DNA of 62,521 bases, from contig MKTV01000065.1 of assembly GCA_001898425.1 (NCBI GenBank), positions 55,590 through 118,110 on the forward strand, read 5' to 3'. Shown here one piece after another: positions 509-36,365 of this stretch (within the stretch, counting starts at the first letter, position 1; every line of letters begins with the position of its first letter). The notes beneath the pieces were generated by a model, which was given only the letters and a program-made list of their open reading frames with translations, ran no database searches and was not told where the DNA came from. The stretch comes from Rhodospirillales bacterium 69-11. Its GTDB lineage: Bacteria; Pseudomonadota; Alphaproteobacteria; Acetobacterales; Acetobacteraceae. A program made the translations under genes and the position numbers.

Positions 509-775
509 ATGGCCGGGCCGGATGGGGGTGGGGCGGACCGTGTGCGGGCTGACGCGGAGCCCAGGCACGATGGCTGCCGAGCAGCCGGTGGCGCCCTGGT
601 GCTGTTCGACCTGCTGTCCGGTTCCCTGCATGACGGCCTGGCCAGCCGGGAGGAGATCCGCCGCGCCGTCGACGCCTTCGCCTGGGACCTGATCGGGCGG
701 ATGACCGAAGGGGCGCCCTGGCACGCGGAGCCCGAGGTGCAGAAAGCCCTGGACAGGCGTGCGGCCAGGGTCTAA
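509..775 (+). CDS. Small hypothetical protein (88 aa)
   Basis: ATG at 509 is preceded by AGGGAG eight nucleotides upstream, a good ribosome binding site. The product has a polar, low-complexity first 25 residues, then an apparently folded segment (LVLFDLLSGSLHDGLASREE) and an acidic/basic helix up to residue 88. No signal peptide or membrane segment is visible. I do not recognise the family. It reads in the same direction as rplK and ends 161 nt before it, with a GC-rich hairpin (779-784 pairing with 796-801) after its stop. The ribosome binding site argues that it is real. Confidence 0.5.
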   Translation: MAGPDGGGADRVRADAEPRHDGCRAAGGALVLFDLLSGSLHDGLASREEIRRAVDAFAWDLIGRMTEGAPWHAEPEVQKALDRRAARV

Positions 776-898
776 ACGCCCGCGCTCCATCGGAACGCGG
801 GAGATGGCGGACGTCTCGTCCTGGCTGGCGGCCTGTTGCGGGTCGAAAAGCAGGTCGGGCGGCGTTATCGCATGCACCGCGGTCCCTCGGTAACCGCG

Positions 899-915
899 CC
901 CCGGACGATCCGGGG
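899..915 (+). promoter_or_regulatory. Hairpin in the rplK leader
   Basis: CCCCGG (899-904) and CCGGGG (910-915) form a perfect six-base stem with a five-base loop, ending 21 nt before the rplK start. There is no following T-run, so it is more likely a leader structure than a terminator. The L1 repressor of this operon binds a structured leader in other bacteria, but I cannot show that this is its site. Confidence 0.3.
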
Positions 916-936
916 GCAACCTGAGGACCAGGGATC

Positions 937-1371
937 ATGGCGAAGAAGATCGTCGGCTACATCAAGCTGCAAATCCCGGCCGGGAAGGCCAACCCATCCC
1001 CGCCGGTCGGCCCCGCGCTCGGTCAGCGTGGCCTGAACATCATGGCCTTCGTGAAGGAATTCAACGCCGTCACGCAGAACATGGAGCCGGGGATGCCGGT
1101 TCCGGTGGTGATCACCGCCTATGCGGACCGCAGCTTCACCTTCATCACCAAGACGCCGCCGAACACCTACTTCCTCAAGAAGGCGGCGAAGATCGACAAG
1201 GGCAGCCAGACCGTTGGCAAGGGCCAGCCGGTCGGCAGCGTCACCATGGCGCAGCTGCGCGAGATCGCCGAGATCAAGATGAAGGACATGAACGCCAACG
1301 ACGTCGACGGCGCCGTGCGCATGCTCGCCGGGTCGGCGCGTTCGATGGGTCTCACCGTGGTGGAGGGCTGA
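937..1371 (+). CDS. rplK: 50S ribosomal protein L11
   Basis: L11 is the 50S stalk-base protein that binds the GTPase centre of 23S rRNA and is needed for the RelA stringent response. The product is 144 aa, the usual length. The N-terminal domain begins [16 protein letters not shown], with the Pro-rich turn around residues 20-25; the C-terminal rRNA-binding domain occupies about residues 75-140 and ends [17 protein letters not shown] sequence nine nucleotides upstream supports the start. rplA follows after only 4 nt, so the two are co-transcribed. Unusually, secE and nusG do not lie immediately upstream. Confidence 0.98.
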
Positions 1372-1375
1372 TCCG

Positions 1376-2065
1376 ATGGCGAAGAACAAGCGCCTGGCCG
1401 CCGCCCGGGCCTCGGTCGACGGGGCGAAGGCCTATCCGCTCGCGGACGCGATCGCGCTGATCAAGTCGATCTCGAAGGCGAAGTTCGACGAGACGATCGA
1501 GATGTCCATGAACCTGGGCATCGATCCGCGGCATGCGGACCAGATGGTGCGCGGCCTGACCAACCTGCCGAACGGCACGGGCAAGACGGTGCGCGTGGGC
1601 GTCTTCGCCCGGGGGCCCAAGGCCGAGGAGGCGCTGGCCGCCGGGGCCGACGTGGTCGGCGCCGAGGACCTGATGGAGAAGGTGCAGGGCGGGGAGATCG
1701 CCTTCGACCGCTGCATCGCGACGCCCGACATGATGGGCATCGTCGGCCGGCTGGGTAAGATCCTGGGCCCGCGCGGCCTGATGCCGAATCCGCGCCTGGG
1801 CACCGTCACGATGGACGTGCGCGGCGCGGTGACGGCGGCGAAGGGCGGGCAGGTCGAGTTCCGCGCCGAGAAGGCCGGCATCATCCATGCCGGCATCGGC
1901 AAGGTGTCCTTCGAGGAGGACAAGCTGGTCGAGAACGCGAAGGCGTTGGCCGATGCGGTCACGCGCGCGAAGCCGACCGGCGCCAAGGGCACCTATGTGA
2001 AGGCCGTCTCGATCAGCTCGACGATGGGGCCCGGCATCCGGGTCGACGTCAGCTCGATCGCCTGA
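1376..2065 (+). CDS. rplA: 50S ribosomal protein L1
   Basis: L1 forms the mobile stalk of the 50S subunit at the E site and, in other bacteria, represses translation of its own L11-L1 message. The 229-aa product is of normal length. The family core is visible around residues 120-150 ([20 protein letters not shown]), followed by the conserved [19 protein letters not shown] segment. Its start lies four bases after the rplK stop, implying translational coupling. A 388-nt untranslated region follows before rplJ. Confidence 0.98.
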
Positions 2066-8058: not shown

Positions 8059-12279
<4,221 letters not shown>

Positions 12280-28147: not shown

Positions 28148-28209
28148 CCTGACAAGCGGCACGTTCCGGCGTAGCGTTCGTGACAGAAGGAAGACTACCG
28201 GGGGAAACG

Positions 28210-29397
28210 ATGGCTGCACTCGACAACTGCTACAACGTCTTCGACCTGCGCGAGGCCGCGAAGCGTCGTCTCCCCCGCGGCGTGTTCGAGTTCGTCGACC
28301 GGTCCACCGAGGACGAGATCGCGCTGCGCAACAACCGCGCCGCGTTCGAGAAGATCAAGCTCCGCCACCGCGCGCTGGTCGACGTCTCCGGCCGCACCAC
28401 GAAAACGACGCTGTTCGGCAAGGAAATCGCCCTGCCCATGGCGATCGCCCCCACCGGCGCCGCCGGCCTGTGCTGGCACGAGGGCGAGCTCGAGCTCGCC
28501 AAGGCCGCCGCGAAGGCCAGGATCCCCTTCACGCTCGCGACCGGCGCCATGACCGCCATGGAGAAGATCGCGCGGGAGGCGAATTTCCGCCTGTGGTTCC
28601 AGCTCTATGTCTGGAAGCAGCGGGAACTGTCCTACCAGCTGATCGAGCGCGCCAAGAACAACGGGTTCGAGGCGCTGATCGTCACCACCGACACGATCGT
28701 GCCGCCGAACCGCGAGTACAACGCGAAGAACGGCTTCCTGCTGCCGTTCCACCCGACCGCGCGCTTCACGCTGGACATCATGCGCCACCCGACCTGGGCG
28801 ACGACGGTGCTGCTGAAATACCTGCGCACCATCGGCATGCCGCGCAACGAGAACTACCCCGACCCGTATCGCCGCCCCATCGGCAACGACGCGCACACCA
28901 AGGAGGTGATGCGCCAGGACAGCCTCAACTGGGACGACATCGCGATCTTCCGCGACAAATGGCCGGGCATCCTGATGCTGAAGGGCATCAACCGCGTGGA
29001 CGACGCGCTTAAGGCGATCAGCTACGGCGTGGACGGGCTGATCGTGTCCAACCACGGCGGCCGCAACATGGACAGCGCCGCGGCGACCATCGACCTGCTG
29101 CCGGAGATCGCCGAGGCGGTGGGCGACCGCGCCACGGTGATCCTCGATTCCGGCGTCCGCCGCGGCTCTGACATCGTCAAGGCCGTCGCACTCGGCGCGC
29201 AATGCGTGCTGACCGGGCGCGCCACGCTGTACGGCACGGCGGTGGGGGGCGAGGCGGGGGCCAGCAAGGCGGTCAACATCATCCAGACGGAGATGGACAA
29301 GACCATGGCCTATACCGGCTGCAACCGGGTGGACGAGATCTCCACCGACATCTTCTTCCTGGGCGACCGGGAGCGGAACCGGATGGTCGCGGAATAG
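28210..29397 (+). CDS. FMN-dependent alpha-hydroxyacid dehydrogenase (first copy)
   Basis: A 395-aa member of the L-lactate/mandelate/glycolate oxidase family, which oxidises an L-2-hydroxy acid to a 2-oxo acid through FMN. The TIM-barrel signatures are present: AIAPTGAAGL near residue 80, QLYVWKQRE (substrate Tyr) near 137, LKGINRVDDALKA and the catalytic His282 in SNHGGRNMDSAAA; Arg in LDSGVRRGSD binds FMN phosphate. I start at ATG 28210 behind a GGGGGAAA sequence. A second copy follows after 16 nt. The natural substrate is not evident. Confidence 0.88.
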   Translation: MAALDNCYNVFDLREAAKRRLPRGVFEFVDRSTEDEIALRNNRAAFEKIKLRHRALVDVSGRTTKTTLFGKEIALPMAIAPTGAAGLCWHEGELELAKAAAKARIPFTLATGAMTAMEKIAREANFRLWFQLYVWKQRELSYQLIERAKNNGFEALIVTTDTIVPPNREYNAKNGFLLPFHPTARFTLDIMRHPTWATTVLLKYLRTIGMPRNENYPDPYRRPIGNDAHTKEVMRQDSLNWDDIAIFRDKWPGILMLKGINRVDDALKAISYGVDGLIVSNHGGRNMDSAAATIDLLPEIAEAVGDRATVILDSGVRRGSDIVKAVALGAQCVLTGRATLYGTAVGGEAGASKAVNIIQTEMDKTMAYTGCNRVDEISTDIFFLGDRERNRMVAE

Positions 29398-29413: not shown

Positions 29414-30580
29414 ATGTCCGTCCTCGACCGCTGCCACAACATCCCCGACCTGCGGGAAGCCGCCGCACGCCGCCTGCCGCGCGGCGTGTTCGAGTTCGTC
29501 GACCGCGCGAGCGAGGACCACCTCGCCGTCCAGGGCAACCGCAGAGCGTTCGAGGCGATCAAGCTCCGCCACCGCGCGCTGGTCGACGTCTCCGGCCGCA
29601 CCACCGCCACCACCCTGTTCGGCAAGCCGGCCGCCATGCCGCTGGCGATCGCCCCCACCGGCGCCGCCGGCCTGTGCTGGTATCGCGGGGAGGTCGAACT
29701 CGCCCGCGCCGCGGCGAAGGCCGGCGTGCCGCTGACGCTCTCCACCACCTCCATGACTGCCATGGAGACGCTGACCGCGTTCGGCGGCCGGCTGTGGTTC
29801 CAGCTCTATGTCTGGAAGCGCCGCGACCTCTCGCACGAGATGATCGAGCGGGCGAAGCGCGCGGGGTATGAGGCGCTGATCGTCACGGTCGACTCCGCCG
29901 TCCCTGGCAACCGCGAATACAACGCGCGCAACGGCTTCGCCCTGCCGTTCCACGCCTCCCCCCGCTTCATGCGCGACGTCGCCCGCCACCCCGGCTGGAC
30001 CCTGGGCGTGATGGGCCGCTACCTCGCCAATGGCGGCATGCCCAAGCACGAGAACTACCCCGCGCAGTTCCAGAGCACGATCGTGAGCGGCCTCGCCGGA
30101 CGGCGGGAGGAGATGAACCACGACTCCCTGAGCTGGGACGACCTCGCCCGCTTTCGCGACATGTGGCCGGGTGTGCTGATGCTGAAGGGCGTCAACCGCG
30201 CGGACGACGCGGTGCGCGCGCTCGCCTATGGCGTGGACGGGCTGATCGTCTCCAACCATGGCGGGCGCAACATGGACAGCGCCGCCGCCACGCTGGCCGT
30301 GCTGCCCGAGATCGCGGAGGCGGTGGGCGAGCGCGCCACCGTGCTGCTCGATTCCGGCATCCGCCGCGGCTCCGACATCCTCAAGGCCCTGGCGCTCGGT
30401 GCAAAGGGCGTGCTGACCGGCCGCGCCACGCTGTACGGCACCGCCGTCGCCGGGGAGGCCGGGGCCGCGAAGGCGATCGGGATCCTGAAGACCGAACTCG
30501 ACAAGACGATGGCCTATACCGGCTGCCGGACGGTGGACGAGATCGGGCCGGAGGTGATGTTCGGGGAGGGGGCACGATAG
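29414..30580 (+). CDS. FMN-dependent alpha-hydroxyacid dehydrogenase (second, tandem copy)
   Basis: This 388-aa protein is a close paralogue of the gene 16 nt upstream: long stretches are identical (RLPRGVFEFVDR, KLRHRALVDVSGRTT, SNHGGRNMDSAAAT) and the catalytic His is again residue 282. Differences cluster in the loop around residues 190-240, which lines the substrate channel in this family, and the C-terminus is shorter. The pattern suggests a local duplication followed by a change in substrate range, or a heteromeric enzyme. Confidence 0.88.
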   Translation: MSVLDRCHNIPDLREAAARRLPRGVFEFVDRASEDHLAVQGNRRAFEAIKLRHRALVDVSGRTTATTLFGKPAAMPLAIAPTGAAGLCWYRGEVELARAAAKAGVPLTLSTTSMTAMETLTAFGGRLWFQLYVWKRRDLSHEMIERAKRAGYEALIVTVDSAVPGNREYNARNGFALPFHASPRFMRDVARHPGWTLGVMGRYLANGGMPKHENYPAQFQSTIVSGLAGRREEMNHDSLSWDDLARFRDMWPGVLMLKGVNRADDAVRALAYGVDGLIVSNHGGRNMDSAAATLAVLPEIAEAVGERATVLLDSGIRRGSDILKALALGAKGVLTGRATLYGTAVAGEAGAAKAIGILKTELDKTMAYTGCRTVDEIGPEVMFGEGAR

Positions 30581-30602
30581 CGCCCCTCGGCTGCGTGCCG
30601 CC

Positions 30603-30630
30603 TTGTGAGCGGAAATATTCTGGCTATATG
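30603..30630 (+). promoter_or_regulatory. Putative promoter/operator of the toxin-antitoxin pair
   Basis: TTGTGA (30603-30608) and TATATG (30625-30630) are 16 nt apart in a markedly AT-rich patch (AAATATTC...GCTATATG) just upstream of the antitoxin gene, 25 nt before its start. Each hexamer matches the sigma70 consensus at four of six positions. Such regions usually also bind the antitoxin-toxin complex. Confidence 0.4.
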
Positions 30631-30654
30631 CTTGGACATGACCGGAGAGATCCG

Positions 30655-30957
30655 ATGGCCAAGTCCTCCCAGCAACGTGCCCTCGCAAACTACCGAAGCC
30701 GCCTGTCCCAAAAAGGCATGGTGCGCTTCGAGGTGACCGGCCGCGCAGAGGACCGGGACCTGGTGCGAACGGTCGCGCGCACGCTCGCCGAGGAGGGTGC
30801 AGACGCCGAACGGCTGCGTTCGGCGCTCCAGCAAGGACTCGACCGGGAGGCGCCACGTAGAGGGGGGATCCTGGCCGCCTTGCGCGCCTCTCCGCTCGTC
30901 GACGCCGACCTCGACCTCACCCGCCCGCGCGAAACTGGCCGCCCCGTCGATCTGTGA
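30655..30957 (+). CDS. Antitoxin of a VapBC-type pair
   Basis: A 100-aa protein starting at ATG 30655 behind GGAGAG. The first half is predicted DNA-binding (a basic stretch AKSSQQRALANYRSRLSQKG, then a beta-like MVRFEVTGR); the second half is helical and ends in a flexible Arg/Pro-rich tail that would wrap the toxin. The stop overlaps the toxin GTG in GTGA (30954-30957), the coupling usual in type II systems. Identification rests mainly on the PIN-domain neighbour. Confidence 0.75.
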   Translation: MAKSSQQRALANYRSRLSQKGMVRFEVTGRAEDRDLVRTVARTLAEEGADAERLRSALQQGLDREAPRRGGILAALRASPLVDADLDLTRPRETGRPVDL

Positions 30958-31379
30958 CCCGCTACCTGCTCGACACGAACATCATCAGCAACGTCGTCAA
31001 GCCGATCCCCTCGCCGTCCCTGATCGCGTGGATGGCTCAACAACCCGACGACCGATTGTTCATCGCGTCCCTGACCCTCGCCGAGATCTGGCGAGGCATC
31101 CTGGACAAGCCGGCCGGCAAGCGACGGGATCAGCTCGAAGCCTGGTTCACCGGGCCAGTCGGCCCGCTCCGGCTCTTCGCCGGCCGGATCTTGCCCTTCG
31201 ACGCAGAGGCCGGTCTGGCCTGGGCGCGGCTGATGGCCGAAGGGAGGGCGAGGGGCCGTACCCGGAGCGCCCTGGACACCGTCATCGCGGCCGTGGCGCA
31301 GGTCAACGACTGCACCGTCGTCACCGACAATGACCGGGATTTCGAGGGCGTGGCGTGCCTCAATCCCATCCGGGGCTGA
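30954..31379 (+). CDS. PIN-domain toxin, VapC-type ribonuclease
   Basis: The 141-aa product is a PIN-domain endoribonuclease of normal VapC length that would cut structured RNA when released from its antitoxin. The acidic metal-binding residues are in place: D7 (LLDTN), E44 (LAEIWRG), D108 (SALDTVIAA) and D125 (TDNDRDF). GTG at 30954 overlaps the antitoxin stop. The pair is inserted between two catabolic genes without other mobile-element remains. Confidence 0.88.
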   Translation: MTRYLLDTNIISNVVKPIPSPSLIAWMAQQPDDRLFIASLTLAEIWRGILDKPAGKRRDQLEAWFTGPVGPLRLFAGRILPFDAEAGLAWARLMAEGRARGRTRSALDTVIAAVAQVNDCTVVTDNDRDFEGVACLNPIRG

Positions 31380-31482: not shown

Positions 31483-32589
31483 ATGAAGATCGCGGCCATC
31501 TCCGTCATCGCCCTCGACATCCCGCTCGACCGGAATTTCGGCGGCAGCAAATACAACGTCACCAAGCGCTGCACGATCATCACGCAGATGCGGACGGACA
31601 CAGGCCTGGTCAGCGAGGTCTACAACGGCGACAACCGCGACCACATGCGCGCCGTGGTCGACATCATCGAGCAGGAGCTGGCGCCGCTGCTGATCGGGCA
31701 GGAGATCTACGCCGTCGAGCGCCTGTGGCAGCGCATGTTCAAATGCGCCGAATGGAACCGCGACCGCAAGCTGGTGATGGAGGCGATCGCCTGCATGGAC
31801 AGTGCGATCTGGGACCTCCTCGGCAAGGCCGCCGGCGTCAATGTCTGCCGTCTGCTCGGCGGCTACCGGCAGGAGCTGCCGCTGATCTGCATCGGCGGCT
31901 ACTACGAGGACGGCAAGACGCTGGCCGATCTCGGGCGGGAGATGGAGCGGCTGCGCGACGCCGGCCTCGCCGGCTGCAAGGTCAAGGTCGGCGGCCTGAG
32001 CGCGGAACAGGACGCGGCGCGGGTCGAAGCCGCCCGCAAGGGCGCCGGCCCCGAGTTCTGGATCGCGGTCGACGCCAATCGCGGCTGGCCGGTGGCCGAG
32101 GCGGTGAAGTTCGCTCGCCTGGTCGAGAAATACGACATCGCGTGGTTTGAGGAACCGTGCCTGTGGTTCGACGACGCGGCGATGATGGCGCAGGTGCGCA
32201 GCCGCACCGCGATCCCGATCAATGCGGGCCAGAGCGAGATGACCGCCGCCGGCATGCGCCGCCTGGTGGAGAGCGGGGCGGTGGACATCGTCAACTTCGA
32301 TGCCTCGGAGGCGGGCGGCGTCACCGAATGGCGCCGCGTCGCCACGCTATGCCAGTTGCGCGGGCTTCAGGTGGGGCATCACGAGGAAGCGCAGATCGCG
32401 ATGCAGATGATCGCGGCGATCCCGAACGGCGTGTGCGTGGAGTGCTTCGAGCCGGCGCGCGATCCGATCTGGGCGGGGCTGATCGCGAACCGGCCGGACC
32501 CGAAGGGCGGGATCATCCCGATCCCGCAGGGGCCCGGGTTCGGGCTGGAGCTGAACTGGGACATGGTGAAGCGTTATCGGATGAATTAG
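31483..32589 (+). CDS. Mandelate racemase/muconate lactonizing enzyme family protein
   Basis: An enolase-superfamily enzyme of 368 aa starting at ATG 31483 behind CAGGAG. The capping domain occupies about residues 1-130, then the TIM barrel. Catalytic positions match the mandelate-racemase subgroup: the K166-V-K168 base pair, metal ligands D197, E223 and E252, and a His at 299/300. It should abstract the alpha-proton of a carboxylate, as a sugar-acid dehydratase or racemase; the family does not allow the substrate to be named. It is followed by an abrupt change in base composition. Confidence 0.88.
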   Translation: MKIAAISVIALDIPLDRNFGGSKYNVTKRCTIITQMRTDTGLVSEVYNGDNRDHMRAVVDIIEQELAPLLIGQEIYAVERLWQRMFKCAEWNRDRKLVMEAIACMDSAIWDLLGKAAGVNVCRLLGGYRQELPLICIGGYYEDGKTLADLGREMERLRDAGLAGCKVKVGGLSAEQDAARVEAARKGAGPEFWIAVDANRGWPVAEAVKFARLVEKYDIAWFEEPCLWFDDAAMMAQVRSRTAIPINAGQSEMTAAGMRRLVESGAVDIVNFDASEAGGVTEWRRVATLCQLRGLQVGHHEEAQIAMQMIAAIPNGVCVECFEPARDPIWAGLIANRPDPKGGIIPIPQGPGFGLELNWDMVKRYRMN

Positions 32590-32649
32590 GGGCTGTCGAA
32601 GATGACTGCTGACGACCGGTTCTGACGCTCAGCCCGCGAGGAGAAGGCT

Positions 32650-33714
32650 TTGCCCATCTACGAATTTTCCCAGACTGCGATAACTGCGTTGAAGGAGACG
32701 ACCTTCAGTTCGGCCAATGTTCATGAGCGTCGGGATCTGCAAAGGCTTCTTCGTGAGAACATCGAGGTCATCGCACCCGAGACGCTGGTCATCTCCGAAG
32801 AGTTCGGAGAATGGGAGGATTCTCGTCGCCGCATCGATCTACTCGGGATTGATAAAGACGCCAATTTGGTCGTCATCGAGTTGAAGCGTACTGAAGACGG
32901 GGGACACATGGAGCTCCAGTCAATTCGCTACGCGGCAATGGTATCTACGATGACTTTCGAACGCGCTGCCGAGGTCTATGGACGGTACCTTGCAGGGCTC
33001 GGGAAGGAAGATCAGGACGCTCGTACGCTGATGCTGGACTTCCTCGGGTGGGACGAACCGGACGAAGACCTTTTTGGGCAAGATGTCCGCATTGTTTTAG
33101 CGTCAGCAGAGTTCTCGAAAGAGCTCACTTCCGCCGTGCTGTGGTTGATCGCGCGGACAATCGATATCCGTTGCGTGCGGTTGAAGCCTTACAGCCTAGA
33201 TAATCGCATTCTCGTAGACGTGCAGCAGGTCATTCCACTCCCTGAGGCTGAGGATTTTCAGGTCCAGATTCGTGAGAAGGCGCGCAAAGAGAGGGAGTCG
33301 CGATCTGGCGGCATGGATTTCACGCGGTTCGACATACAAGTTGACGGAGAACAACGCAAAGCCATGTGGAAGAGGAATGCAATCTTTATGATCTGCAAAC
33401 GCCTCTGCGACCGGAATGTAAATCCAGAGGAACTCTCGGCCCTCTTTAGCTGGCGCCCTAATCGGGTGTGGTATTGGGTTGATGGTAGTGTTGACTCTGC
33501 GGAGTTCAAGACGCTTGCAGCCACGAAAGCGATGACGACGGGCGCAGCATTCGATAGTCGGCGATGGTTCTGTGATGATGATGAGCTATGCCGCGCAAAC
33601 GGAAAAACCTATGCGTTTTCGACGCAATGGGGTGGTGAGAACTGGCACAGAGCGATGAACGCTCTGAAGGAGCACTATAAGCAGTTCAATATCGACTTTT
33701 CTCCTGCTGCTTAA
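32650..33714 (+). CDS. PD-(D/E)XK nuclease, NucS/DUF91-like
   Basis: The 354-aa product begins at TTG (32650) after GAGGAGAAGG. The nuclease core is clear: E54 or E56, D63 (RRRIDLLGID), E77-x-K79 (VVIELKR) and the Q90xxxY94 motif (ELQSIRYAAM), the layout of NucS/EndoMS-type endonucleases. The remaining 220 residues look like a helper domain rich in aromatics and Arg/Lys. Base composition is much more AT-rich than in the flanking genes, suggesting transfer. It converges on the kinase gene with four bases between the stops. A DNA-cleaving defence or repair role is plausible. Confidence 0.78.
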   Translation: MPIYEFSQTAITALKETTFSSANVHERRDLQRLLRENIEVIAPETLVISEEFGEWEDSRRRIDLLGIDKDANLVVIELKRTEDGGHMELQSIRYAAMVSTMTFERAAEVYGRYLAGLGKEDQDARTLMLDFLGWDEPDEDLFGQDVRIVLASAEFSKELTSAVLWLIARTIDIRCVRLKPYSLDNRILVDVQQVIPLPEAEDFQVQIREKARKERESRSGGMDFTRFDIQVDGEQRKAMWKRNAIFMICKRLCDRNVNPEELSALFSWRPNRVWYWVDGSVDSAEFKTLAATKAMTTGAAFDSRRWFCDDDELCRANGKTYAFSTQWGGENWHRAMNALKEHYKQFNIDFSPAA

Positions 33715-33718
33715 CTTA

Positions 33719-34801
33719 TTATAAGGCCTCAGCCTGTCCGATTGCCTGTTTCAACGAAGATGGACTGGCAGAATGGACTATCCTCCAAGACTTTCCCCTC
33801 TTCGCCATTTTTTCTATCCGATACTGTCCCAGGCCATTCTCCACGACTCTGAATTTCGCGTGGTCACGATACAGTGCTGGTTCTGGTTCCAGTCGCCAGT
33901 CTGGAACCGCGCTTCTCAGGTTGTTTAGGCGAGCGATGAATGCAGACACACTCTCAAGGCGGTCTGAATGTGCTACGCTACAGCACTTCCGAATCAAGGA
34001 TACCAGGCCCGGAGGACACCACGGCGGGAGGCTTCTGAGATCGACTATTTTTCCCTTCTTTATCCGTTCCTCTATGATTCCATTTGCGAATAGATCATCC
34101 GAAGGATAGGCTTTTGCCTTATATATCGCGAGTTCCTGCGGTGTCAGCCAAGCTTCCTTCTCGTATGGAAGATAGCCGCCGAGCAACTGGTAGAATATGA
34201 TGCCCAACTGGTAGATATCACTCTGGTCATATGCTTGTCTGAGTTGGACCTCTTCAGGTGTTCGGTAAATTAAAGAATGACGAGACAAAGTCTGAACATA
34301 CCCGTTGCTATTCTTCTCCGCAACCGAGCCGAAGTCGCCGATCAACAAGCGGCTCTCGTTATCTAGGAAGATGTTCGCGGGCTTGAGATCTCGGTGGAGG
34401 AACCCTTTGCCGTGCATGAAAGCGACACCGCTGGCAACGTCTAGAATCATGTCGATTGCCCGCCTGATGCCGACCCCAGCATTCTGGATCACGGCATCCA
34501 GATCACCTTGCTCGCAACAAGGCGTTATGAAGTAGGCCCAGTTTTTATCTATGGCTGCAGCATCGTGGACCGGCAGGATGCGTGGATGGCTCAGTTGCGA
34601 CAGCAATTTCGGTTCTGCGTGTTCTCCGTCGCCCCAGTAATAGAACTTTACAACTACTTTTCGATCGATGATTTTATTTTGACCAATCAGGACATATCCA
34701 TTTTGACCCTTGTCTATGACTTGTTGAAAGTCTATTTTCTCTGCAAGGTCGGTAGCGGTTGTGCGGAGACTCTCGTCTAGACTTGATATATCAATTGGCA
34801 T
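33719..34801 (-). CDS. Hanks-type serine/threonine protein kinase with C-terminal extension
   Basis: The 360-aa protein starts at 34801, four bases after the stop of the preceding minus-strand gene. The kinase domain (about 25-295) is complete and should be active: Gly-rich loop KGQNGYV (31-37), Lys52 in VVVKFYYW, catalytic H136-R-D138-LKPANIF, D156-FG and YRTPEEV as the APE segment. Residues 300-360 form a separate basic/aromatic C-terminal domain that I do not recognise. No transmembrane segment or PASTA repeat, so it is cytoplasmic. It lies in an AT-rich island (22 G/C in 34681-34740). Confidence 0.9.
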   Translation of the reverse strand: MPIDISSLDESLRTTATDLAEKIDFQQVIDKGQNGYVLIGQNKIIDRKVVVKFYYWGDGEHAEPKLLSQLSHPRILPVHDAAAIDKNWAYFITPCCEQGDLDAVIQNAGVGIRRAIDMILDVASGVAFMHGKGFLHRDLKPANIFLDNESRLLIGDFGSVAEKNSNGYVQTLSRHSLIYRTPEEVQLRQAYDQSDIYQLGIIFYQLLGGYLPYEKEAWLTPQELAIYKAKAYPSDDLFANGIIEERIKKGKIVDLRSLPPWCPPGLVSLIRKCCSVAHSDRLESVSAFIARLNNLRSAVPDWRLEPEPALYRDHAKFRVVENGLGQYRIEKMAKRGKSWRIVHSASPSSLKQAIGQAEAL

Positions 34802-34805
34802 GAAA

Positions 34806-35224
34806 TCACGTCGCCTTGGACAGACGCCAAGCTCCGGCGCGATAGGACTCATGCTGGTAGGCTTTGAGAGTTGATGGCAGTCCTGCAAGATTGCTCTTCT
34901 GTGAGAAGGTCGTGAGCGTTTTCGGACTGAGAAACACCACAGGCACTTCCGAAAGCTGGAACAGGGTCTCTATCTTGAACGTTATGCCTCCCCCGGATTT
35001 CAATCCTGTTTTGAGTCGTGTCTTGATCACAAATTCTTCAATCTTATTCTGAATGGCAAACGCTTCGATAGCTGATTTGAAACTTAGCAGTGACTGCTTT
35101 TCCTCGTCATCGAGAAGGATGAGCTTCTTTGTTGAGCAGGTAAATGGGAACTGCCGTCTGGCGAGCTGCTGACCACCGCCAGATGAGCTTCCTTTCCAGC
35201 GATCACGACGCCACAGACAATCAC
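34806..35224 (-). pseudogene. DUF3010-like gene broken by a frameshift
   Basis: From GTG (complement 35222-35224), just after GGAGAAGAGG, one frame reads MIVCGVVIAGKEAHLAVV, then SSSPDGSSHLPA, and soon stops. The -1 frame then continues STKKLILLDDEEKQSLLSF to a stop at 34806. Together they match the layout of DUF3010 proteins, predicted RNase H-like. The span is 419 nt, one short of 140 codons, so one base is missing near 35128-35140. The kinase start is four bases downstream. A sequencing error or real inactivation are both possible; no slippery heptamer is visible. Confidence 0.7.
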
Positions 35225-35253
35225 GTCCTCTTCTCCATCCCCGAATTGGGAAT

Positions 35254-35282
35254 TTCATAACGACATCGGTATTTGCTGTCCA
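35254..35282 (-). promoter_or_regulatory. Promoter of the DUF3010-kinase unit
   Basis: On the minus strand TGGACA (35277-35282) and TATGAA (35254-35259) are separated by exactly 17 nt. Transcription would start near 35247, leaving a leader of about 23 nt with the ribosome binding site for the GTG at 35224. This supports the shorter, GTG-started DUF3010 frame over a longer ATG frame beginning at 35258. Confidence 0.5.
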
Positions 35283-35300
35283 GCCACTGGTGTCCGCCCC

Positions 35301-36365
35301 CTAATCCAACACCCACTCCGCCGCCGAGGCCTGCGCGATCTGCCGCACCTGCCGCAGCAGCCCAGGCCCGACCGGAATCCCCTCCCGCATCCGCCGCTCC
35401 GCGTTCTTCCATTGCGGATCGCCCGCCACCATCACCGGCTGCGCCGGATCCACCGGCGTCGTCGCGCGCAGATCGCCGCAGAACCGCGCCACGTCCGCCT
35501 CGAACGCGCCTTCCTCCCGGAACAGCCCGGGGTCGATCACCATGAAGAAGTGCCCGATATCCATCCCCTGCGGCTTCTTCGTATGCGCGGGGTCGGTGAT
35601 CAGCGTCGCGCCCGACAGGCAGGACGACAGGATGTTCACCATCGCCGCCAGCCCATACCCCTTGTAGCTCGAGTTCTCGGGCGACCCGCCCAGTGACGTC
35701 ATGAACCCGCCTTTCTCCTTCGCCACCAGCGGGTCCACGCTGGGCTGGCCCTCGCTGTCCAGCACCCAGCCGGGCGGGCAGTCCAGCCCCTCGTTCGCCT
35801 TGTTGCGGATGCGCCCGGCGGCCACCGTCGTCGTCGCCATGTCCAGCAGGAACGGCTTGCCCTCGGCCGACGGTGCCGCGAACGACCAGGGGTCGGTGCC
35901 GAGCCGGGCCTGCTTGCCAAAGGTGGGGGCCACCTGGATGCCGGAGGCCGAGGTGCCGCCCATCCCGATCAGCCCCGCCTTCGCCGCCATCTCCGTGTAG
36001 AACCCCACCGCGCCGAAATGGGCGGAGTTGCGCACCGCCACCACCGCCATCCCTGCCTGTTGTGCCTTGGCGATCGCAGTGGACATGGCGAAATGCGCCG
36101 GCACGTGCCCGAGGCCGCCGCCGCCGTCGACCAGGGCGGAGACCGGGCTCTCCCGCACGATCTTCGGCTGCGCGTCCATCTTCGCGCGCCCGTTGCGGCG
36201 CAGCGCGTCGTAGCCGGGGATCATGGAAATGCCGTGGCTGTCCACCCCGTGCAGGTCCGCCCAGGACAGGATCTCCGCCGTGATCGCGGCGTTCTCCGCC
36301 GGCATGCCCCAGGCGCGCAGGATCGAGTCGAGCTGGGCACGATGGGCGGCATAGGGCGCGGGCAT
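35301..36365 (-). CDS. Ldh-family NAD(P)-dependent oxidoreductase (malate/lactate/ureidoglycolate dehydrogenase type)
   Basis: The 354-aa product starts at 36365 with GGAGGAG seven nucleotides upstream. It belongs to the type-2 malate/L-lactate dehydrogenase family, which has a non-Rossmann fold and includes ureidoglycolate and delta1-piperideine-2-carboxylate dehydrogenases. Family marks: DLHGVDSHGISM near residue 45, the catalytic His in VRNSAHFGAVGFYTEMA, TDPWSFAAP and GYGLAAMVNILSSCLSGA. The exact 2-hydroxy/2-oxo acid substrate is not predictable. It marks the return to high GC after the AT-rich island and is divergent from the nitroreductase gene. Confidence 0.88.
   Translation of the reverse strand: MPAPYAAHRAQLDSILRAWGMPAENAAITAEILSWADLHGVDSHGISMIPGYDALRRNGRAKMDAQPKIVRESPVSALVDGGGGLGHVPAHFAMSTAIAKAQQAGMAVVAVRNSAHFGAVGFYTEMAAKAGLIGMGGTSASGIQVAPTFGKQARLGTDPWSFAAPSAEGKPFLLDMATTTVAAGRIRNKANEGLDCPPGWVLDSEGQPSVDPLVAKEKGGFMTSLGGSPENSSYKGYGLAAMVNILSSCLSGATLITDPAHTKKPQGMDIGHFFMVIDPGLFREEGAFEADVARFCGDLRATTPVDPAQPVMVAGDPQWKNAERRMREGIPVGPGLLRQVRQIAQASAAEWVLD

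Follow-up and report, generated by a model that had tools for sequence, protein, structure and literature searches.

Stk2, a eukaryote-like Ser/Thr kinase of staphylococci, is switched on by a phage protein and then phosphorylates host proteins, which brings about killing; the accessible part of the report describes it as a single kinase and names no partner (PMC6532042). CapK and CapS, according to the available portion of another report, form a kinase–partner gene pair linked to immune operons, CapK being a GHKL kinase and CapS a STAS-wHTH repressor (PMC13373217). Here we analyze a pair consisting of a Hanks-type Ser/Thr kinase gene and a gene of family DUF3010 (PF11215), found in Rhodospirillales bacterium 69-11 (GenBank assembly GCA_001898425.1, contig MKTV01000065.1, positions 55,590 to 118,110 of the forward strand; this whole stretch of 62,521 nucleotides is called the window). 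The pair shares a eukaryote-like Ser/Thr kinase with Stk2, and we propose a similar working logic, but its kinase has a DUF3010 partner. It shares the kinase–partner arrangement with CapK/CapS, but the domains are unrelated. The closest relatives of the window kinase among PADLOC models are MAD6 of MADS (E 1.9e-43) and PD-T4-6 (E 1.4e-29), although the MAD6 model has 659 positions and the window kinase 360 amino acids. In contrast to these kinase models, PADLOC has no model that matches DUF3010: in PADLOC-DB 2.0.0, neither four intact copies (E 1e-20) nor the broken copy of the window (E 1) gave a match.

The name DUF3010 appears in two papers of the open literature searched, the one on its superfamily and one with a gene list (accessible part of PMC10441182); its predicted fold dates from 2014. 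In this literature, with subscription papers and preprints outside its scope, no function is reported for DUF3010. Among the papers listed by searches of the same literature, there was no defense pair of a kinase with an RNase H-like or RuvC-like protein, which does not prove absence from print. The kinase was not seen without DUF3010, and the pair thus provides a first functional handle on the family and a testable two-gene anti-phage candidate.

Pairing of the two genes

Eleven distinct loci, the window included, carry the pair, and in all of them the DUF3010 gene lies directly upstream of the kinase gene on the same strand. Eight were found by their kinase (two plasmids, pHG1 of Cupriavidus necator and pRPC of Rhizobium sp. 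BG6, the latter with an intact pair; four viral contigs; G718, a genome from the same class as the window; and a contig of Anoxynatronum buryatiense, a member of the Clostridia) and two from their DUF3010 (G318 and G135), the linkage holding in 8/8 and 2/2, respectively. The spacing between the genes, computed for eight loci, ranges from -8 to +9 nt; in the window, the kinase ATG stands 4 nt past the DUF3010 stop, the coupling that the original prediction had noticed. By comparison, none of 79 other kinase loci from the same scan, each 3-21 kb, contains DUF3010 at E 1e-3. Across the 11 loci, the pairwise identities of the kinases and of the DUF3010 proteins are correlated with r 0.90, a value reached in 0 of 5000 permutations; the window is represented there by the C-terminal DUF3010 part only. 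Constant pairing and correlated divergence thus indicate that the genes travel and diverge together, and kinase and DUF3010 are one conserved, horizontally moving two-gene unit.

Both proteins carry family hallmarks. The VAIK lysine and the HRD, N and DFG residues are invariant in 11/11 kinases. DUF3010 is unbroken at nine of the loci, and six intact partners score 85-115.7 bits against PF11215. The DUF3010 partner conforms to the RuvC fold, with 9-15% identity to RuvC. A residue on the first strand appears to correspond to RuvC's first catalytic acid, judging from alignment and predicted secondary structure rather than residue-level structural alignment; this acid is kept in 5 of the 11 kinase-linked proteins and absent from six, the window's among them (V, Q, F, M, F, K). 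The kinase-linked proteins differ in this from RuvC resolvase, SPT6/Tex and YqgF, as their first-strand acid is not conserved.

The original prediction would have been refuted had the pair been a housekeeping operon in related bacteria. It is not: among 98 genomes (its own, genus, family and class), DUF3010 is present only in the window's own genome, with one match. In a sample of the window's phylum, taken to be Pseudomonadota, DUF3010 exceeds the cut-off in 39/398 genomes. Three divergent members (G318, G135 and G000) all occur with the kinase, and the other 36, at E 3.5e-43 or better, are apparently a stand-alone form. A kinase profile found no further strong member in this sample, a search that is not independent because three of the six profile rows come from G318, G135 and G000.

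The locus in the window

The pair lies in a small, foreign-looking, AT-rich block (Table 1) whose three genes have a GC content of 0.50-0.53, versus 0.68-0.71 in the flanking genes, in agreement with the original prediction. The kinase is complete, as had been predicted, with intact catalytic motifs and a PF00069 match of 114.7 bits (cut-off 31.7); a small, beta-rich C-terminal module occupies about residues 301-360. The open reading frame (ORF) was listed from a TTG at 34888, and its start was set to the ATG at 34801 by comparison with homologues. The PADLOC Stk2 model matches only part of the catalytic core (residues 130-232, E 5.5e-11).

Table 1. Features of the AT-rich block (window coordinates)
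Feature	Position	Strand	Basis
AT-rich block	32590..35300	.	GC profile, flanking genes by Pfam
PD-(D/E)XK nuclease, PDC-S11, 354 aa, TTG start	32650..33714	+	PADLOC PDLC04909, E 1e-136
Hanks-type Ser/Thr protein kinase, 360 aa	33719..34801	-	Pfam and catalytic motifs
DUF3010 C-terminal part, frame B	34806..35138	-	PF11215, identity to L043
DUF3010 N-terminal part, frame A, GTG near 35224	35141..35224	-	Other frame, break between parts

The predicted DUF3010-like gene is indeed a family member, but it is broken in this assembly, so that only one gene of the window's pair is intact. Its C-terminal part matches PF11215 at 69.7 bits (cut-off 25) and has 54% identity, across 110 residues, with the unbroken homologue of locus L043. 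In the 150-aa ORF at 34806-35258, residues 40-142 align to profile positions 29-134 of 137, and residues 1-39 fall outside the match; the N-terminal strand, VIVCGVVIAGKEAHLAVV..., is encoded at 35224-35141 in a different reading frame from the rest. The break may reflect decay or an assembly error. As it stands, it would probably render the window's own copy of the pair inactive.

The third gene of the block encodes a nuclease that ends tail-to-tail with the kinase, the two stops 4 bp apart, and that has all three catalytic residues (D63, E77 and K79), both as predicted. Its predicted likeness to NucS is weak: NucS_C of Pfam reaches 16.6 bits where 24 are required, and NucS of NCBIfam 24.3 where 216 are, so that the protein falls short of NucS/EndoMS in both, whereas PDC-S11 matches over nearly the full length (residues 1-350 aligned with 1-342 of the 347 profile positions). 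PDC denotes a PADLOC defense candidate, and PDC-S11 is listed as an unvalidated one in the accessible text of its source (PMC12813430).

The original prediction had joined nuclease, kinase and DUF3010 into one accessory unit. The common AT-rich block and the tight packing of the genes in the window would suit such a three-gene system, but the wider distribution speaks against it. The proposed co-occurrence survives for kinase and DUF3010, linked in all 11 loci in unrelated organisms, and fails for the nuclease, which among the pair loci is present in the window alone (1/11) and on the strand opposite the pair. Conversely, the pair occurs at 0/28 other nuclease loci, many with short flanks: neither kinase nor DUF3010 was found around 13 loci with flanks up to about 1.5 kb, at three plasmid loci with 6-kb flanks, or at 12 viral-contig loci of 5-11 kb each. 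The nuclease is found in 14/396 sampled genomes of the phylum (E 1e-20 or better). Of 352 plasmid records with a match at E 1e-5, six cover 80% or more of its length. Elsewhere its neighbors are transposase or recombinase genes, or BREX and TrlF-type genes, as on Vibrio tubiashii p123, where a homologue follows BREX genes and precedes TrlF-type genes. The three-gene system is thus largely refuted and very improbable; the PDC-S11 nuclease, already catalogued in its own right, is an independent candidate located on the same island and outside the pair.

Neighborhood and proposed role

Known or candidate defense genes lie within 5 kb of the pair at 5/11 loci. On Cupriavidus necator plasmid pHG1, IetA and IetS follow the kinase (PADLOC, E 9.5e-76 and 2.4e-36); on one viral contig (L048), an MmeI-type IIG restriction-modification gene comes next (E 0, Pfam MmeI domains); L044 has McrC/McrB-like genes on one side (McrC, PF10117, E 2.9e-102, Pfam) and, on the other, a gene that we take from its sequence to be gyrB; L045 has a YhcG/DUF1016 nuclease, PDC-S02 (E 2.2e-164); and the PDC-S11 nuclease adjoins the pair in the window. 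The pair also occurs in an element with an integrase and a VapE-type primase close to tRNA-Gly and tRNA-Glu (L140), near transposase-like genes in A. buryatiense (L049), and in what is, by gene order, presumably a P2-like prophage, with the terminase confirmed (L043). P2-like phages carry defense hotspots, according to the accessible part of PMC9122126. At L003, L046 and L047, no defense neighbor was recognized in the DNA examined.

At E 1e-15, 71 neighbor ORFs of the pair matched 51 PADLOC families, and the best 25 of these (E 0 to 1.2e-45) were considered; as a control, 78 ORFs from 11 regions, located in three of the genomes, matched three families, the best at 2.7e-25. The predicted enrichment near defense genes is therefore borne out in direction and is statistically modest; with such small numbers, it is suggestive.

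Recurrence on phages and plasmids and beside anti-phage genes in unrelated bacteria makes the pair a good candidate for an undescribed phage-defense system. We consider a defense function probable. Our main reading, to which we give a probability of about one half, is that the pair would be an anti-phage (or anti-mobile-element) module working by kinase signaling, by analogy with Stk2-type abortive-infection kinases. The RuvC-fold DUF3010 partner would recognize a nucleic-acid structure or a phage protein, the specific trigger being conjectural, and would then release or activate the co-translated kinase, which in turn would phosphorylate cell or phage proteins, so that infection stops. The assignment of roles within the module, with the kinase as effector and DUF3010 as sensor or activator, is more tentative and would fall somewhat short of even odds. 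A more specific version seems unlikely, namely that a RuvC-fold protein whose nuclease site has been lost in many lineages senses branched or recombining phage DNA and directly controls the co-translated kinase. The pair would then be a DNA-structure-activated kinase, an abortive-infection system of two genes that phages, plasmids and islands have carried through Pseudomonadota and Bacillota. Should the RuvC-fold partner indeed drive the kinase in response to DNA structure, bacterial immune kinase signaling would gain a new kind of input.

Several points weigh against the defense module. There are only 11 loci, six of which come from viral or plasmid collections, so that the apparent mobility is partly ascertainment. 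DUF3010 has no match in 50,697 phage records, where the kinase matches are partial and generic. The resemblance to defense kinases is also of limited reach: PADLOC contains defense models only, so that the MAD6 and PD-T4-6 matches show family resemblance and not function; NCBIfam scores the window kinase almost equally as MAD6 (96.8 bits) and PknB (94.2 bits); and 96.8 bits lies below the MAD6 equivalog cut-off of 460, which places the kinase outside MADS. Counted by PADLOC only, with the best 25 of 51 families, 4/11 pair regions against 0/11 control regions is a weak difference (one-sided Fisher p 0.045), and leaving out the window gives 3/10 (p 0.09). McrBC was recognized by a Pfam scan on the pair side of the comparison only, and its PADLOC match is weak (1.2e-17), similar to those of the control. 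Finally, a broken DUF3010 beside an intact kinase could be a sequencing error in the window.

Other arrangements would also account for a mobile gene pair. The order of a small gene followed by a larger enzyme, overlapping or nearly so, and the mobile distribution are those of a toxin-antitoxin system, in which the kinase would be constitutively toxic and the upstream DUF3010 its antitoxin. Yet at 2 of the 11 loci, the window and pHG1, DUF3010 is broken beside an open kinase with all catalytic residues; the window genome has no second DUF3010, and two database records agree on the in-frame stop of pHG1. A toxin freed from its antitoxin would not be expected to persist, which renders this explanation improbable, unless the kinase is unexpressed or the breaks are errors. 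About equally improbable is a DUF3010 that serves as an active nuclease effector, RuvC-like or RNase H-like, and is switched on when the kinase phosphorylates it. That would be the polarity of the original prediction, minus the PD-(D/E)XK gene: the kinase would sense or switch and the RNase H-like protein would act as effector. This polarity is the less likely one because it is the kinase that has the invariant active site. The first-strand acid is lost in 6/11 kinase-linked proteins but kept in 28/30 stand-alone ones, and the end of strand 4 (IKxR motif), as read from alignment and predicted secondary structure, has no acid.

The pair might instead serve the mobile element itself, by controlling lysogeny or superinfection, by maintaining a plasmid or island, or by regulating neighboring genes through phosphorylation. 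Viral contigs make up 4/11 loci, and the unrelated CapK/CapS are a precedent for a regulator pair beside immune operons, the partner following 443/443 kinase genes in the accessible part of that report (PMC13373217). On the other side, no DNA-binding domain was matched in the window kinase (Pfam) or in six DUF3010 partners. The surroundings are varied (plasmids; presumed gyrB and McrBC; IetAS; MmeI-type genes), and the loci examined have no common downstream operon. We regard such a role as unlikely, less so than the toxin-antitoxin or nuclease explanations, and retain the signaling module of kinase and DUF3010 as our preferred reading.

Stand-alone DUF3010 and further observations

The stand-alone DUF3010 proteins, apparently the form described as mostly gammaproteobacterial (PMC3985635), have the Pfam family and the IKxRxxxG...FKxE motif in common with the kinase-linked form, but differ in their surroundings and in the first-strand acid. 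The family kinase was present at 0/30 loci fetched of 36 (flanks up to about 1.5 kb), and 28 of these 30 have D or E as the acid, the other two being unmatched by the pattern, against 5/11 in the kinase-linked form. The stand-alone gene (loci L013-L042) is a single-copy gene, otherwise unexplained, in 36/398 sampled genomes. One copy lies on a 62-kb viral contig (L159, 5001-5405, + strand), with no family kinase within the 10 kb examined, and another on Roseobacter litoralis plasmid pROLI81 (L005, 5869-6336, + strand), with a transposase and an integrase a few kilobases away.

On pHG1, the DUF3010 gene with the in-frame stop (L004, 5584-5997, + strand) is unannotated and lies upstream of an annotated kinase. 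At L043, a SIR2-like ORF (9347-10246, + strand; PF13289, 20.8 bits, E 0.00046, below the cut-off) lies past the gene that follows the terminase, on the same contig as the pair. At L049, an ORF at 704-1633 (+ strand), about 1.3 kb upstream of the pair, encodes a HEPN/Apea-like protein just under the cut-off (PF18739, E 0.0001).

The island of the window is bordered on the left by a mandelate-racemase-like gene that ends at 32589 and on the right by a malate/L-lactate dehydrogenase gene that ends at 35301 (both by Pfam). From 35303 on, beginning with the end of the dehydrogenase gene, the sequence is homologous to two congeners, neither of which matches the AT-rich block or the mandelate-racemase-like gene. 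About 1.2 kb to the left of the island is a gene for a VapC-like PIN-domain toxin (30954-31379, + strand; PF01850, E 2.8e-14); the ORF just upstream of it (30163-30957), which has no Pfam match, may encode an antitoxin. Two tandem ORFs (28180-29397 and 29414-30580, + strand) are 68% identical to one another and presumably encode FMN-dependent lactate-dehydrogenase-like proteins.
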